Shown here in pieces: positions 16,105 through 23,063 of a DNA stretch of 42,562 nt. Under the pieces are notes generated by a model. The model worked only from the letters and a program-made list of their open reading frames with translations. It was not told where the DNA came from and made no database searches. Origin of the DNA: Arenicellales bacterium (GTDB lineage Bacteria; Pseudomonadota; Gammaproteobacteria; Arenicellales; UBA868); assembly GCA_030754035.1 (NCBI GenBank), contig JASMBC010000007.1, positions 1 through 42,562 of the forward strand. The letters are read 5' to 3'. How positions within the stretch are numbered: the stretch's first letter is position 1; each line of letters starts with the position of its first letter. Both the position numbers and the translations under genes were made by a program.

Positions 16105-17925
16105 TCAGTGCGTCGAAGCCAGCACCGATTTACCCTTCGGAATCCGGACTTCGTCCACCATCTTCTGGGTTTCCTCATCGGGTTCGGCTGTTGCCAGGCT
16201 AACCCCAACCATGGCGACCAGGCTCACCACACAACCAATGACGCCAAAGCGCAGGTGATCGATGTAGAGCCACGGCTCCATGCCGCCCCATTTGACCATA
16301 TACAGATACCAGGTTCCGGCGAGCAAGCCGAAGAACATACCGGCAATCGCACCCTGGCGGTTAGCCCGTTTCCACCAGACTCCAAGCACCAATGGGAAGA
16401 ACAGGCCCGACATAGCAAAGTCGAAAGCCCAGGCCACCGCGCCAAGGATGGTGGTGAGTTTCATACTGGCGACAAAGGCGGCAGCCGCACCGATGACGAT
16501 CAGCAGCACGCGGGCCACGATCAGGCGGTGTTTGGTATCAGCCTTAGGATCGATGATCTTGTAGTACAGATCATGCGAAAGCGCATTGGCGATCGCCAGC
16601 AGCAGACCATCGGCCGTGGACATCGCAGCCGCCATACCACCGGCAGCAACCAGGCCTGAGATCACATACGGCAGGCCGGCAATTTCCGGCGTTGCCAGCA
16701 CCACGATATCCCCACGCATGAAGAACTCGTTGATCTGCAGGAGACCATCACCGTTACTATCGGAGATCGCAACGAAGCCGACATTGCTCCACTTCTGTAT
16801 CCATTCCAGCGCATTGACTTCGGCGATGGCCTTGCCAATGATGCCGGTTGCCAGATTGGGATCAAGCACCTGCAGTTTGGTAAAGGTCGCCAGCGCCGGC
16901 GCGGTGAAATACAGCAGGAAGATGAAGAGCAGCGACCATGCGACCGACTGGCGAGCCGCCTTGACACTCGGTGTCGTGAAGTAGCGCATCAGGATGTGCG
17001 GCAGAGACGCCGTACCGGCCATCATGCAGAACACCAAAGTAACGAACTTCCACTTCGCGGCAAAGGAGGTACCGGCTTCATAGTGCGGTACCGTCAGCGC
17101 CTTCAGTCCAGCGAAGGCCTCGGTCGGCTTGATGCCCACCCCATGTAAGGTTTCGAGTTCGCCCAGTCGCATGACGGCCTCGCCGTATACCAACTGAGGA
17201 ATTATCCCAAAACCTTGCTTGTTGGACATCCAGATCACGGGTACGACATAGGCGATGATCAGCACGATGTACTGGGCCACCTGGGTCCAGGTTACCGCGC
17301 GCATGCCGCCCAGCATTGAGCACAGCAAAATACCCAGCAGGCCGAACCAGACGCCGACCTCGAAGGGAATCTGCAGCGCCCGCGAGGCGATGGTGCCGGT
17401 GGCGTTAATTTGCGCTGTCACGTACGTGAACGAGGCCAGCGTTAACACGCACACAGCCAAAAAGCGCGCCAGGTTGCCGCCATAGCGGGTACCGATGAAA
17501 TCCGGCACCGTGTAGCAGCCAAACTTACGCAGGTATGGTGCCATCAGTGAGGCCACCAGCACATAGCCGCCGGTCCAACCGACTACGAAAGCAATGTAGC
17601 CGTGACCGCCGAAGTAGATGCCCCCTGCCATCGCGACAAATGATGCGCCGGACATCCAGTCCGCTGCGGTCGCCATGCCGTTAAATACCGCTGGCACCTG
17701 GCGGCCCGCTACGTAGTAGGCGTCCACCTGCATGGTTCGCGAGAGCCAGCCGATGGTTGCATAGATCACCACGGTGAAGGCCACGAACAGGATGCCGATG
17801 GTGTCGGCTCCCAGCCCGGCCTGCTCCAGGATCGCCATCAGCAGGATGAAAACGACAAAACCGCCCGTGTATAGCCCGTAGACCTTGGGCAGATTGTCTA
17901 TAAAATCACCTTTGATAATTGCCAT
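16105..17925 (-). CDS. Sodium:solute symporter, VC2705/ActP-like subfamily (large subunit)
   Basis: Inner-membrane importer of the SSS (SLC5) family, 606 residues with about a dozen membrane helices. Landmarks: YYVAGRQVPAVFNGMATAAD then WMSGASFVAMAGGIYFGGHG, DFIGTRYGGNLARFLAV, and YVISGLVAAGGMAAAMSTAD followed by GLLLAIANALSHDLYYK. It belongs to the branch that works with a DUF4212 small subunit, which is encoded 12 bases upstream. This branch includes acetate and short-chain carboxylate permeases; the substrate here is not proven. Residues encoded at 16726-16761 read DSNGDGLLQINE, a perfect EF-hand-type loop. The ribosome binding site GGGAG precedes ATG 17925. The operon has a sigma-54 promoter at 18339-18354 and an intrinsic terminator at 16047-16084. 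Confidence 0.93.
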   Translation of the reverse strand: MAIIKGDFIDNLPKVYGLYTGGFVVFILLMAILEQAGLGADTIGILFVAFTVVIYATIGWLSRTMQVDAYYVAGRQVPAVFNGMATAADWMSGASFVAMAGGIYFGGHGYIAFVVGWTGGYVLVASLMAPYLRKFGCYTVPDFIGTRYGGNLARFLAVCVLTLASFTYVTAQINATGTIASRALQIPFEVGVWFGLLGILLCSMLGGMRAVTWTQVAQYIVLIIAYVVPVIWMSNKQGFGIIPQLVYGEAVMRLGELETLHGVGIKPTEAFAGLKALTVPHYEAGTSFAAKWKFVTLVFCMMAGTASLPHILMRYFTTPSVKAARQSVAWSLLFIFLLYFTAPALATFTKLQVLDPNLATGIIGKAIAEVNALEWIQKWSNVGFVAISDSNGDGLLQINEFFMRGDIVVLATPEIAGLPYVISGLVAAGGMAAAMSTADGLLLAIANALSHDLYYKIIDPKADTKHRLIVARVLLIVIGAAAAFVASMKLTTILGAVAWAFDFAMSGLFFPLVLGVWWKRANRQGAIAGMFFGLLAGTWYLYMVKWGGMEPWLYIDHLRFGVIGCVVSLVAMVGVSLATAEPDEETQKMVDEVRIPKGKSVLASTH

Positions 17926-17937
17926 ATTATTTTCTCC

Positions 17938-18228
17938 CTAGTTCGAACGGGCGCTGAGTTTGTCTTCGTCTTCGGCCACGCCGTGCTCCACGTCAATCGC
18001 GTGCTGGCGCCTGGCGAACCAGAAGATCAGCACTACGAAAATGATCAGGGAGCCCTGGGCAGCCATGTAGAAGCCCAGCGGAAAACCAAGGAAAGAAGCG
18101 TTGTTCAGGCTGTCAGCAAACCAGTGAACAAGGTACGAGAAGATGAACCAGATAATCAGGGTTGTGATCATCAGCCCTTTAGTCTTGGCCCAGTGCGCTT
18201 CACGTGTCGATTGATCCACGTCAGTCAT
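17938..18228 (-). CDS. DUF4212 sodium:solute symporter small subunit
   Basis: 96 residues with two membrane helices (GLMITTLIIWFIFSYLVHWF and GFYMAAQGSLIIFVVLIFWF) and polar ends. The layout W-A-K-T-K before the first helix, FADSLNN between, and FARRQHAIDVEHGV after the second are typical of DUF4212 proteins, which pair with VC2705-type symporters. A strong GGAGGG ribosome binding site precedes ATG 18228. First gene of the operon behind the sigma-54 promoter. DUF4212 is thought to assist the symporter; its precise role is not settled. Confidence 0.93.
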   Translation of the reverse strand: MTDVDQSTREAHWAKTKGLMITTLIIWFIFSYLVHWFADSLNNASFLGFPLGFYMAAQGSLIIFVVLIFWFARRQHAIDVEHGVAEDEDKLSARSN

Positions 18229-18338: not shown

Positions 18339-18354
18339 AGCAATTTCCGTGCCA
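18339..18354 (-). promoter_or_regulatory. Sigma-54 promoter of the symporter operon
   Basis: On the minus strand the sequence is TGGCACGGAAATTGCT, a perfect match to the -24/-12 consensus TGGCAC-N5-TTGCW. Transcription should start near 18329, about 100 bases before the DUF4212 start codon. The adjacent regulator gene encodes a sigma-54 activator. Confidence 0.9.
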
Positions 18355-18425: not shown

Positions 18426-18444
18426 GTGTTACCAAAGGTAACAC
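18426..18444. promoter_or_regulatory. Palindromic activator site upstream of the sigma-54 promoter
   Basis: GTGTTACCAAAGGTAACAC is a perfect palindrome with 8-base arms and a 3-base centre. It lies about 106 bases upstream of the expected transcription start, the usual place of an enhancer site for an NtrC-type activator. A second copy of the core lies at 23013-23029 before the kinase operon. Confidence 0.75.
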
Positions 18445-18509: not shown

Positions 18510-19862
18510 TCAGCGGCTATCGGCTATCCGGCCCCGGGGAATGCCGAACTTCTGCCGGCGTTCCCACAACGTTTTGCGACTGATGCCCAGTTGGCGGGCG
18601 AGCTCGGTCTCGGTCAGGGAATTCTCGTTGCTGCACACGAAGTCCACAAAGTAGTCGTCCAGCGAACCGGAGAACGCGCTAGTGGCCGCTTGCGCTTGCC
18701 CACCCACTGGCGCCCGCTCCAGGTTCAACAGTTCCGGCAGGATGACCTCCTGGTCACACAGAATGATCGCCCGCTCCAGCGCGTTCTCCAGTTCGCGGAC
18801 ATTGCCCGGCCAGTCATAGCGTGCGATCAGCTCACGGGTCGACTCGGGTAGCCTACACAGCGGCCGGTTCAGGCTCCGACAGAGTTTCTCAAGCAGGTGG
18901 TTGGTGAGTGCTGGCAGGTCCTCCGTGCGCTCGCGCAGGGGTGGTAGGCGTATCTCGACCACCCGCAGGCGGTAGAGTAAGTCCTCGCGGAAGCGCTCGT
19001 CGCTGACCCGTTTTCCCAGGTTGCGGTGGGTGGCGGCCAGTACTCGGACGTCCACTCGCTTGACCTTGTGCGAGCCCAGGCGCCGTAACTCTCCTTCCTG
19101 GATTACTCGTAGCATTCCGGCCTGAGCTGCGGCCGAAAGTTCAGCGACCTCGTCCAGAAACAACGTGCCACCGTCGGCGCTCTCGATCAGCCCTGCGGTT
19201 GTTTTGTCAGCGCCGGTGAAGGCGCCTTTCTCGTAGCCGAAAAGTTCGGATTCCAGTAGCGTGTCGGGAATCGCAGCGCAGTTCATAGTTACCAGCGGTG
19301 CATCACTGCGGTTGCTTTGTTCGTGGATGGCGCGTGCTACCAGTTCCTTGCCAGTGCCTGATTCTCCAAAGATCAGCACCGTCGAATCGGTAGGGGCCAC
19401 CTTGGCAATGTGTGTGAAAACCTGGTGCATGGCCGGACAGTCTCCGACCATTCCTGACACTGGGTAACCCCGCTGGATGTCCTTGCGAAGAGCCTGGTTC
19501 TGTCGATTGATCCGGTCCTGCCGAATCAATCGGTCGGCCACAATGATCATCTCGTCGTGATTGAAGGGCTTGGCGATGTAATCGGCCGCCCCGGCCTTGA
19601 TCGACTCCACCGCCGAACTGATGCTTGCGTAACTGGTCATAATCAGTACCGGTACGCCCCCACACTGATCGATAATCTCGGTGCCAAGCCCGCCGGGTAG
19701 CCGCAGGTCGGCAATAATCAGATTGAACGAATCCAGTTCGTACTGACCCTTGCTCTGTGTTATCGAGTCGGCTTCGGCGACATCGTATCCGTGTCGGGCC
19801 AGCAACTTGGCCAGTGCCTGGCGAATCACGGCCTCGTCTTCGATGATCAGTATTCTGCCCAT
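18510..19862 (-). CDS. NtrC-family sigma-54 response regulator, CbrB-like
   Basis: 450 residues in three domains. Receiver domain: acidic pair E8-D9, phosphorylation site D52 in [10 protein letters not shown]76 and K98. AAA+ domain: Walker A GESGTGKE (166-173), the sigma-54 contact loop GAFTGA (213-218), Walker [10 protein letters not shown] (231-239). C-terminal Fis-type helix-turn-helix: [20 protein letters not shown]. When phosphorylated by its kinase it should remodel the sigma-54 holoenzyme at promoters such as 18339-18354. The kinase gene ends 18 bases upstream on the same strand. It most resembles CbrB given its partner; the exact orthology is inference. Confidence 0.93.
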
Positions 19863-19880: not shown

Positions 19881-22823
19881 CTAGGGTGCGCCTTGCAGGA
19901 CTACCCGCACTTCAGTGCCGACTCCCGGCGCGCTGTCGACTTCGATTTCACCACCGTGATCACGTACGATGCCGTAGGTCAACGCCATGCCGAGGCCGGT
20001 GCCATCCCCAGGCTGTTTGGTGGTGACAAAGGGTTCGAATATCCGGGCACTGAGTTCGTCGGGCATACCGTGGCCATGGTCGCGCAGGCTGACCTGGATC
20101 AGTTCCGCGGATTTGCTCGCCAGAACTCGCACGCTACTGCCGGCCGGGCTGGCGTCATACGAATTGGTGAGGATGTTTACGAAAACCTGGCACAGGCGTT
20201 GCCGGTCACCTTCAATATTCAACTGGGGGTCGCAGTCGATCAAGACATCGATATTCTTGTTTGGCTGGGACAGTCGCACCAGCTCGGTCGCCTCCTCCAG
20301 GCAACCCCTGAGGTCGAACCGGTGTTTCTCCAGTTTGTCAGCATCACCGCGGCGGCTGAAGTTAACCAGGGTCTGAACGATGTTGTTGATGCGCTCGGTC
20401 TGCTGCAAAATGCCCTGCACTTCTTCGCGCATCTCGCTGTCACGGATTTCTTCTTTGAGATTCTGTGCAAGGCAGGCAATTCCGGTGACAGGGTTACCGA
20501 TCTCATGGGCAACACCCGAGGCAAAACGGCCGATCGACGCCAGCCGCTCGTTGTGCGCCAATTGATCCTCCAACAGGTGAACATTAGTAAGATCCTGTAA
20601 CAGTATGCTGGTGCCTAGGGGTTCGGCCGCCGAGCTGCCAGTATCGTTAGTTGTTGCTGCATTGCCGGGCGTGGCCTTGAGCAGTCCGAACCAGCGCGGC
20701 CGGCCCTCAAGATGAACAAGTTTCTTGTGTATCTCCCGCTGGTCACTGTCGAGAAACTGTTTCAGTAACTCACCCCAAGGTACAGGTAATTGATCAACCT
20801 GGGAGTCCAGCGCCTTCGATTTGTCTACTCCGGACAGCGTGCTCATGACGCCGTTCCAGGTGGTGATGCTGCCGGTAGAGGCGATCGAACAAACGCCCAC
20901 TGGCAGATCCTCCAGCACCTGTCGGTGGTAGCGGCGCATGGTGTCCAGTTGGGCCGCCAGTCCTCGCAGATGGCTACGCGAGGCCTCCAGGCGTTCTTCC
21001 ATGAAGCGCATCCTTTCGGCAACGGGTAGTTTGTGATCACGGTCAATCGGCAGGCGGGTTTCAACCACGTCGCGAGCAAAGTGTGGGCCCAGCAGTCCCG
21101 ACAGGTTGCGCTCGATGCGCTCGCGCAATCGTGCCAGCGCCTGGGTGTTGGTTTCTTCTTCTGCCATCTGCAGGTCGTGCCGGGCGCGCTGTACCTCGTG
21201 CTCTGCGGTTTGGGTGCCCAGAGCGGGGGCCAGGGCCGGGGCGAACTCACGCGACGAAGTGAGCCGCATCCGGCTGCGATACGGTGTGAGGATCTGCTGG
21301 GCGCACAGCGCGGCAGCCTCACGTTCGGCAGCATCCTGGCCCGTTAGAACCGACAGCAATACAAACAGCGTGCCGTTGATGGACAGTGAAACCAGCGTAG
21401 AGAAGGTCCACTTGTTCTGGCCTGCTATCTCCCACAGCGCAGCCTGGGCAGGTCCTTCACCTGGTCCAGCACCGGCCAGCAGCGGCAGGATGAGCACGAT
21501 AAACCAGGTCAGTCCTCCCCCGACCAGCCCCGCGATAAAGCCATTGCGGTTGGCACCCGGCCAGAACAGGGTGCCGATAATGCCAGGCAGGAACTGTGCA
21601 ACCGCAACGAAAGAAATCAGGCCCAGTTGTACCAGTTGGCTGCTGCGTTCGAAAGCGAGAAAGAAGCCGTAACCGGCAAAGACAAGTACCGCGATAATAG
21701 TCCGCCGTCCCCACAGTAGCCAACGGTAGAGGTTGACCGATGTATCGAGTGTGCCAGTGGCTGGAAGGATCAGATGGTTCACGGTCATGCCGGCCAGTGC
21801 CAGGGTACTGACGATAATCATGGCGCTGGCTGCAGAAACCCCGCCGAGAAAGACAAAGATAGTCAGTGCAGCAGATCCGGTATGCCGTGCAATTCCCAGC
21901 ACGTGGTAATCCGGCACGGTACCCAGATTCTGCTTGATCGCTGCCCACAGCACGATTGGAATAGCGAGGTTCAGCACCAGCAGAAAAAGTGGAAAGCCCC
22001 AGGCTGCACGTGACAGAGTCCCCGGGGAGATGTTCTCGGTGAAGAGCATATGGAACTGCCGCGGCAGCAAAAACGCAGCAGCAAATGACAGGATCAGTAC
22101 GCTGACCCAGGGGCCTTCCCGGGCCGGGGTGTACATCGCTTCAAGCGCTTCAGGGTGGCTATCCAGCCATTCACCAAGGCCGCCAATCCCGCCGAAGATA
22201 CCGGTGATGGCAACAACTGCCACCAGGATCAGGGCGAGCAGTTTTACCAGCGACTCAAAGGCGATCGCAACCACCAGCCCCTGGTGCTTCTCCCGCGGAG
22301 AGATATGACGCGCGCCAAAGAGCACGCCGAACAGTACTATGAGTACGCAAAAACTCAAGGACAGATATTGCGGCGCGAATTGCTGTGTCAGCACGCTGGC
22401 GGACTCAGTCACCGCCCGGATTTGCAGCGAGATATATGGCAGTGTCCCGGCCAGCATGAAAAGGGTAACCAGCACGCCGGCGGTCTGGCTGCGAAAACGG
22501 AACGCAAACAGGTCAGCCAGTGATGTCAGCTGGTATTCACGCACCAGGCGCAGGATCGGGCTGAGCAGTACCGGGCTGAGAATAAAGGCCAGGGTCAATC
22601 CCAGATAAACGGTCAGGAACATGAAACCGTTAGAATCGGCGTAACCCGCGCTGCCGTAAAAACTCCAGGTGGTGGCGTAGACGCCCAGCGACAGCACATA
22701 AATGGCCGGGTGCCGAGGCAACCAGGCCGGCAGCCAGTGCTTTTCGGTAGCGTAGGCAACCAGGAACAGTAACGATAGGTACAACAAGCTGCTGAGAAAT
22801 AGCCCCGGTGCCGACAGGATCAT
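19881..22823 (-). CDS. Transporter-domain histidine kinase, CbrA-like
   Basis: 980 residues from ATG 22823. The first ~500 residues form an SLC5/SSS sodium-symporter domain (LYLSLLFLVAYATEKHW, LADLFAFRFRSQTAGVLVTL, SAASAMIIVSTLALAGMTVN). A linker helix and coiled region (VQRARHDLQMAEEETNTQAL) and a PAS-like domain (VLEDLPVGVCSIASTGSITT) follow. The kinase core has phosphorylatable H773 in GVAHEIGNPVTG and ATP-binding motifs NILTNSYDAS, DHGHGMPD, GTGLGMAL. This architecture and length match CbrA, which couples substrate sensing or uptake to phosphorylation of its regulator. ATG 22823 overlaps the stop of a small membrane peptide gene by one base (TGATG), indicating translational coupling; an upstream in-frame GTG at 22922 would run inside that gene and is less likely. 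Confidence 0.92.
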   Translation of the reverse strand: MILSAPGLFLSSLLYLSLLFLVAYATEKHWLPAWLPRHPAIYVLSLGVYATTWSFYGSAGYADSNGFMFLTVYLGLTLAFILSPVLLSPILRLVREYQLTSLADLFAFRFRSQTAGVLVTLFMLAGTLPYISLQIRAVTESASVLTQQFAPQYLSLSFCVLIVLFGVLFGARHISPREKHQGLVVAIAFESLVKLLALILVAVVAITGIFGGIGGLGEWLDSHPEALEAMYTPAREGPWVSVLILSFAAAFLLPRQFHMLFTENISPGTLSRAAWGFPLFLLVLNLAIPIVLWAAIKQNLGTVPDYHVLGIARHTGSAALTIFVFLGGVSAASAMIIVSTLALAGMTVNHLILPATGTLDTSVNLYRWLLWGRRTIIAVLVFAGYGFFLAFERSSQLVQLGLISFVAVAQFLPGIIGTLFWPGANRNGFIAGLVGGGLTWFIVLILPLLAGAGPGEGPAQAALWEIAGQNKWTFSTLVSLSINGTLFVLLSVLTGQDAAEREAAALCAQQILTPYRSRMRLTSSREFAPALAPALGTQTAEHEVQRARHDLQMAEEETNTQALARLRERIERNLSGLLGPHFARDVVETRLPIDRDHKLPVAERMRFMEERLEASRSHLRGLAAQLDTMRRYHRQVLEDLPVGVCSIASTGSITTWNGVMSTLSGVDKSKALDSQVDQLPVPWGELLKQFLDSDQREIHKKLVHLEGRPRWFGLLKATPGNAATTNDTGSSAAEPLGTSILLQDLTNVHLLEDQLAHNERLASIGRFASGVAHEIGNPVTGIACLAQNLKEEIRDSEMREEVQGILQQTERINNIVQTLVNFSRRGDADKLEKHRFDLRGCLEEATELVRLSQPNKNIDVLIDCDPQLNIEGDRQRLCQVFVNILTNSYDASPAGSSVRVLASKSAELIQVSLRDHGHGMPDELSARIFEPFVTTKQPGDGTGLGMALTYGIVRDHGGEIEVDSAPGVGTEVRVVLQGAP

Positions 22824-22984
22824 CAGTTGTCGATCCTGCGGTGCGCCCAGGGAATCAGCAGGATAATCACCAGCCAGATGAGAAAGGGCAGGTACCAGGG
22901 TAGCGTTGCCCGCAGCCACCATCCGGTAACGGGGAAGGCCAGGACCAGCAGCGACAGGCCAAAGAGCAAAAAGGTTCGCTCCAT
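22823..22984 (-). CDS. 53-residue membrane peptide upstream of and coupled to the kinase (CbrX-like position)
   Basis: Short gene in a different frame from the kinase. The product begins MERTFLLFGLSLLVLAFPVT, has a second hydrophobic stretch LPWYLPFLIWLVIILLIPWA and ends HRRIDN: two membrane helices with a positive cytoplasmic end. Its stop overlaps the kinase ATG in TGATG, so kinase translation is probably coupled to it. From memory, pseudomonad cbrA is also preceded by an overlapping small hydrophobic gene, cbrX; the position is the same but I cannot confirm homology. The start ATG is preceded by no clear ribosome binding site. A palindrome lies 29-45 bases upstream. Confidence 0.75.
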   Translation of the reverse strand: MERTFLLFGLSLLVLAFPVTGWWLRATLPWYLPFLIWLVIILLIPWAHRRIDN

Positions 22985-23012: not shown

Positions 23013-23029
23013 TGTTACAAAATGTAACA
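23013..23029. promoter_or_regulatory. Palindromic operator before the kinase operon
   Basis: TGTTACAAAATGTAACA: perfect 7-base arms, 3-base centre. It shares the half-sites TGTTAC and GTAACA, at the same N5 spacing, with the palindrome before the sigma-54 promoter (18426-18444). It lies 29 bases from the start of the small membrane gene and overlaps a possible -35 region, so autoregulation by the response regulator is likely. Confidence 0.7.
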
Positions 23030-23044
23030 TAACGTTGCGACAAG

Positions 23045-23063
23045 ACAAACCGATATGGTTTGT
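23045..23063. promoter_or_regulatory. Second, different palindrome in the divergent region
   Basis: ACAAACCGATATGGTTTGT: perfect 7-base arms around a 5-base centre. Its centre is 33 bases from the centre of the 23013-23029 site, about three helical turns. It could be an operator for the gene at 23106 or a leader hairpin. Confidence 0.45.

Follow-up and report, generated by a model that had tools for sequence, protein, structure and literature searches.

Introduction

The CbrXA-CbrB system of Pseudomonas is the closest described counterpart of the locus considered here. In P. putida, cbrX (PP5704) encodes a peptide of 58 residues and overlaps the sensor kinase gene cbrA by 17 nt; CbrA is hardly made once the cbrX start codon is mutated, and a frame-shifted, restored peptide of equal length and other sequence gives near-normal CbrA expression, from which the authors concluded that translation of cbrX matters and not the peptide (PMC6591292). 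A 2026 preprint, with a structure at 1.9 A, found CbrX in a stable complex with CbrA, where it binds TM3 and TM8, lies beneath the TM6-7 loop and has both its N- and C-terminus inside, and reported that growth on histidine is still complemented by cbrAB without cbrX (PMC13022988). The CbrB subsites of P. putida read TGTTAC and GTAACA (PMC6296734). CbrAB has been reviewed as unique to Pseudomonadaceae (PMC8871633), and published work presents CbrAB/CbrX as a speciality of Pseudomonas and Azotobacter in which deletion of cbrX has no visible growth effect.

We analysed a stretch of 42,562 nucleotides from an Arenicellales bacterium (contig JASMBC010000007.1), hereafter the window, in which a sequence-only reading had picked out an unlisted small frame before a transporter-kinase gene. 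That reading likened its position to that of cbrX before cbrA and offered two guesses as to function, translational coupling or attachment to the kinase's SLC5 domain as a subunit, both of which had been published previously for the Pseudomonas homologue (PMC6591292 and PMC13022988, respectively).

Results

Structure of the locus

The features of the locus are collected in Table 1. Translation of the minus strand of 22823-22984 gives MERTFLLFGLSLLVLAFPVTGWWLRATLPWYLPFLIWLVIILLIPWAHRRIDN* (53 residues and a stop), in which hydrophobic segments can be read at approximately residues 5-22 and 30-47, with a WWLRATLPW turn between them. From these segments, and from alignment to CbrX with its solved hairpin, two transmembrane helices forming an alpha-hairpin are predicted, and charged residues at both ends agree with an N-in/C-in orientation. 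The peptide stop (22825-22823) and the kinase ATG (22823-22821) have a single base in common. The description of an unlisted 53-residue peptide with two membrane helices and a TGATG overlap is borne out by this translation and by the conservation and selection of the frame reported below.

Table 1. Features of the cbrX-like locus in the window
Feature	Position	Strand	Basis
cbrX homologue, 53-residue two-helix membrane peptide (predicted)	22823..22984	-	ORF translation, 10ed chain X homology, conserved frame
TGATG, peptide stop overlapping kinase start	22821..22825	-	read from sequence; overlap 1 nt
CbrA-type sensor kinase (SLC5, STAC, PAS, HisKA, HATPase), 980 aa	19881..22823	-	Pfam PAS/HisKA/HATPase; 10ed chain A
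CbrB-like NtrC-family response regulator (receiver, sigma-54 AAA+, HTH)	18510..19862	-	domain scans
DUF4212 small symporter subunit, probable regulator target	17938..18228	-	Pfam PF13937 E 3e-28, TIGR03647
SSS-type symporter, 606 aa, DUF4212 partner	16105..17925	-	family read from translation; DUF4212 neighbour
Palindrome TGTTACNNNNNGTAACA upstream of cbrX	23013..23029		half-sites equal to CbrB subsites of P. putida (PMC6296734)
Second palindrome TGTTACNNNNNGTAACA upstream of symporter operon	18427..18443		sequence match
Candidate sigma-54 promoter TGGCACGGAAATTGCT	18339..18354	-	sole mismatch-free match in window

A search of PDB chains with the single peptide sequence returned exactly one match, chain X of entry 10ed (Pseudomonas CbrXA; E 6.6e-5), and the family profile A1, built from 33 relatives, matched the same chain with E 2.4e-19. 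Chain A of this entry was matched by the window kinase over residues 6-594, which include the SLC5 and STAC domains (E 3e-166). By sequence and description, 10ed fits the P. putida CbrX-CbrA complex of PMC13022988; its PDB record labels chain X 'MFS transporter' despite the CbrX match. On sequence evidence the frame in the window is a real gene and its peptide a distant relative of Pseudomonas CbrX, and the parallel with cbrX extends beyond a matching position before the kinase to homology. Scans of the peptide and its relatives against Pfam and NCBIfam gave no credible match.

The window kinase (pLDDT of the AlphaFold model, 83) is a 100% match to the kinase of an Acidiferrobacteraceae MAG (L071). 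Its Na2-site lysine, K194, is the equivalent of K196 in P. putida CbrA and is invariant in every SLC5 kinase checked (254/254 CbrA-type, 35 short-clade and 31 CrbS-like), which suggests proton coupling throughout these kinases; the P. putida pocket residues S53, A56 and F248 are T51, S54 and S246 here. Together, the predicted SLC5-STAC-PAS-HisKA-HATPase kinase with its Na2-site Lys and the NtrC-type regulator have the architecture of CbrAB. The next genes downstream of the cbrB-like gene are those for DUF4212 and then the symporter.

Distribution and selection of the small gene

Whole genomes and named GTDB contigs were searched with the kinase, and the CbrX profile was scanned over the upstream DNA. 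The small gene lies at the same place in 117/117 CbrA-type loci with upstream DNA (79 named GTDB loci are outside the profile-building set), in all of L151-L181, where the match at L176 is weak, and in 134/135 further CbrA-type loci. These sets overlap, and removal of duplicates leaves 254 distinct CbrA-type kinases with cbrX directly upstream, from Gammaproteobacteria and some Betaproteobacteria. Sedimenticola selenatireducens, Thioalkalivibrio, Ectothiorhodospira shaposhnikovii, Solimonas flava and Spiribacter salilacus are among the named carriers, as are, on the betaproteobacterial side, an Azoarcus and a Rhodocyclaceae MAG. One locus, L303, looks like a true loss of cbrX, its place being taken by a gene read as gluQ-like, and no natural peptide-kinase fusion was found among the loci examined. 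The sequence-only reading had named beforehand a frame absent from relatives as grounds for its own rejection; the frame is conserved in relatives.

Between the window and L072, cbrX shows dS 0.71 and dN 0.10 (dN/dS ~0.14), and other close pairs give dN/dS of ~0.04-0.4; the window peptide is under purifying selection. The conserved CbrX core, SP..WW....PWY.PYL.W...I, lies outside the overlap with the kinase. Selection at the level of amino acids points past coupling alone, which would not demand it.

Palindromes and promoters

The palindrome TGTTAC-N5-GTAACA occurs twice in the window, against an expectation of 0.03 when up to one mismatch is allowed; the rest of the assembly (1.75 Mb, 69% complete) has no further copy. 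Subsites of the TGTTAC/GTAACA type stand upstream of both candidate targets of the regulator. A perfect sigma-54 promoter sequence follows the second palindrome at a distance of ~80 nt and is itself ~110 nt before the DUF4212 start. Among relatives, a palindrome with at most two mismatches precedes cbrX in 81/107 loci, clustered ~215 nt before the kinase start, compared with 1/309 control stretches inside the kinase gene. Ten relatives have a DUF4212 gene 3.5-7 kb downstream; seven of them carry a sigma-54-like site, with 72-81 nt between palindrome and promoter. Elsewhere, as read from translations, the second palindrome precedes other transporters, acs-like or DUF294-like genes. No sigma-70 promoter was found before the window cbrX. 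These sites point to a self-controlled local circuit that would drive uptake of a carbon source. Separately, an inverted repeat, ACAAACC-N5-GGTTTGT, is present upstream of cbrX at 23045-23063 and is a possible site of another regulator.

Co-variation between peptide and kinase

Direct coupling analysis was applied to the 254 CbrX-kinase pairs (effective number ~150), with transmembrane limits taken from the AlphaFold model. The strongest inter-protein pair joins CbrX F34 to kinase F69 in TM3 (z 8.5), and the third-ranked, CbrX I44 and kinase I81, also falls in TM3; the two are in parallel register, both running from outside to inside if CbrX is N-in. By alignment, F69 is F71 of P. putida CbrA, the pocket gate, which in the Pseudomonas structure adopts two rotamers above the bound histidine. 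The residues at CbrX 34 and kinase 69 are Tyr/Phe in 137 pairs, Phe/Tyr in 47, Phe/Phe in 32 and Tyr/Tyr in 8, and a test of this swap on independent pairs gave 7.2 opposite against 1.1 same (median p 0.07); in the second kinase clade described below the swap was uninformative. TM8 was not enriched in co-variation among the 254 pairs, plain MI-APC did not recover the TM3 pair, its signal being dominated by lineage differences, and the rank of the F34-F69 pair ranged from 1 to 486 on subsampling. For these three reasons we treat F34-F69 co-variation as a lead to a contact and not as proof of one.

A second kinase clade with a small gene

SLC5 kinases of 890-960 residues (~40% identical), found in Gammaproteobacteria and other classes of the phylum, also have a small hydrophobic gene, previously undescribed, just before the kinase (L040-L066, L182-L199). 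The profile of this gene, A3, aligns with the CbrX profile over its full length at 96.8-97.4% in hhalign, against controls of up to 1.1% for slices of the SLC5 domain and 0.1% for DUF4212. In a tree of 98 SLC5 domains, CbrA-type and short-clade carriers fall in one clade (SH-aLRT 99, 66 rows); the tree came from a fast LG+G4 search and its outgroup is distant, which makes the root less sure than this grouping. Five of the 66 rows have no small-gene match, three being cut by contig ends (L032, L095, L192), one having an unrecognised small frame (L217) and one being without the gene (L056). At L056, a frame that by eye resembles a PIN toxin occupies the place of the small gene. The long CrbS-like hybrid kinases outside the clade have the small gene in 0/31 cases, and one early gain is the simplest reading of this distribution. 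A CbrA-type kinase, a DUF4212 gene and a short-clade SLC5 kinase occur together within 16 kb in one further contig (G014:C29, 86867-102468).

Tentatively, and with the odds rather against it, CbrX-type hairpins might be an old and general subunit of SLC5 kinases, gained once before the split of the CbrA and short clades, absent from CrbS-like hybrids and acting on the transporter gate. In that case residue 34 of CbrX, which is Tyr36 in P. putida, would face the Phe71-equivalent residue of TM3 and tune how the kinase reads substrate binding.

Discussion

The explanation that best joins these observations, and which we hold with good though not complete confidence, is that the small gene is the cbrX of a CbrXA-CbrB system, encoding an accessory subunit of the SLC5 domain, with kinase translation coupled to it and the regulator acting from the palindromes. 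The peptide would be an N-in/C-in alpha-hairpin that, like its Pseudomonas counterpart, docks on TM3/TM8 of the SLC5 domain beneath the TM6-7 loop, and the TGATG overlap would couple kinase translation to that of the peptide, such that the kinase is made where its subunit was just made. The most likely effect of the peptide is to stabilise the SLC5 domain or the kinase dimer, and thereby to influence the relay of substrate occupancy; catalysis would not need it. The kinase would then phosphorylate the adjacent regulator, which would act from the two palindromes, one ahead of cbrX and one ahead of the DUF4212-symporter operon. The present analysis shows the gene, its homology, conservation and selection, and the presence of the sites. 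Coupling and complex formation, both demonstrated by others for the Pseudomonas homologue, would extend to the window as well; the stabilising role and the binding of the regulator to the palindromes are further steps that we infer.

The overlap between cbrX and the kinase gene is 11 nt in 87/117 loci, 4 nt in 14 and 1 nt in 5, including the window. TGATG fits termination-reinitiation, and the case for coupling in the window rests on this overlap and on homology to Pseudomonas. The window kinase has its own AGGA 10 nt upstream of its start, which may make coupling looser than in Pseudomonas. A 9-bp hairpin at the cbrX end, formed also in L072, can hold this AGGA and the start paired to the codons that follow. 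Were coupling the whole story, the frame would be a leader whose translation exposes the kinase start, and the peptide would have no function of its own. The hairpin agrees with such a leader, and the P. putida data weigh against a role for the peptide itself, since a peptide of different sequence and equal length keeps CbrA expression and cbrAB without cbrX complements, deletion giving no growth phenotype on histidine. However, amino-acid conservation and a low dN/dS extend along the entire peptide and are not confined to the overlap, and the homologue is a chain of the solved complex (10ed). In L073, moreover, the hairpin is lost; it is only weakly unusual (0.095 of shuffles are as closed), and across 110 loci kinase starts are no more closed than inner sites, a comparison that rules out sequestration of kinase starts by hairpins as a family feature. 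We consider a leader without further function unlikely.

Much less probable again is that the peptide is a small symporter subunit of DUF4212/DUF997 type recruited to the sensor. Its similar size, two helices and SLC5-fold partner, and a DUF4212 gene in the same cluster, would agree with such an origin, but the peptide has no Pfam or NCBIfam match and its family compares with DUF4212 no better than with slices of the SLC5 domain. Membership of DUF4212 (PF13937) is rejected on both counts, and the comparison 'much as DUF4212' drawn in the sequence-only reading survives at most as a functional analogy. Profile comparison covered DUF4212; DUF3311 and DUF997 occurred too seldom in the genomes sampled to yield profiles. 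Short frames are common in GC-rich DNA, but a chance open frame of hydrophobic composition is refuted by conservation in 254 loci, by selection and by homology to a solved chain, and its probability is negligible.

As CbrX was already known, the finding of a cbrX gene is ordinary in kind. Its breadth, the selection upon it, the second clade and the pattern of binding sites are new relative to the literature searched: CbrAB has been described as exclusive to Pseudomonadaceae (PMC8871633), but the cbrX-kinase pair spans Gammaproteobacteria and some Betaproteobacteria. That the pair is conserved so widely and with so few losses, that the peptide is under selection and that a second clade has a homologue of it together imply that the peptide does something in nature. 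Hundreds of natural variants, with L303 and L056 as natural losses, are at hand for approaching the role of CbrX, as are two named residue positions.

Among known small partners of SLC5 proteins, MAP17, a subunit of human SGLT2, resembles CbrX in being a small membrane subunit and differs in having one helix, another sequence and another binding site. The DUF4212/TIGR03647 subunit is, like the window peptide, a small two-helix partner of an SLC5-fold protein encoded just before that partner, but there is no detectable homology and its partner is a transporter, not a kinase. The A3 small gene is homologous to CbrX over its full length, takes the same place before the kinase and keeps the conserved P and W...I, whereas it has its own motif, NYPLL..FD...GIPLLYLYLF..W, and often stops a few bases short of the kinase gene, without overlap. 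Closest of all is P. putida CbrX, to which the window peptide is homologous, with two predicted helices, a position directly before and overlapping a CbrA-type kinase, and an NtrC-type regulator downstream; the two differ in overlap (1 nt against 17), in length (53 residues against 58) and in the AGGA of the window kinase. In the window, the half-sites are identical to the P. putida CbrB subsites, but are set at a fixed N5 spacing, compared with 20-25 bp between centres in Pseudomonas. Whereas CbrAB in Pseudomonas serves a global catabolite-control network with crcZ, the palindromes of the window point to a local circuit of its own promoter and the adjacent symporter, which, with two sites in the assembly, may resemble what CbrAB did ancestrally more closely than global catabolite control does.
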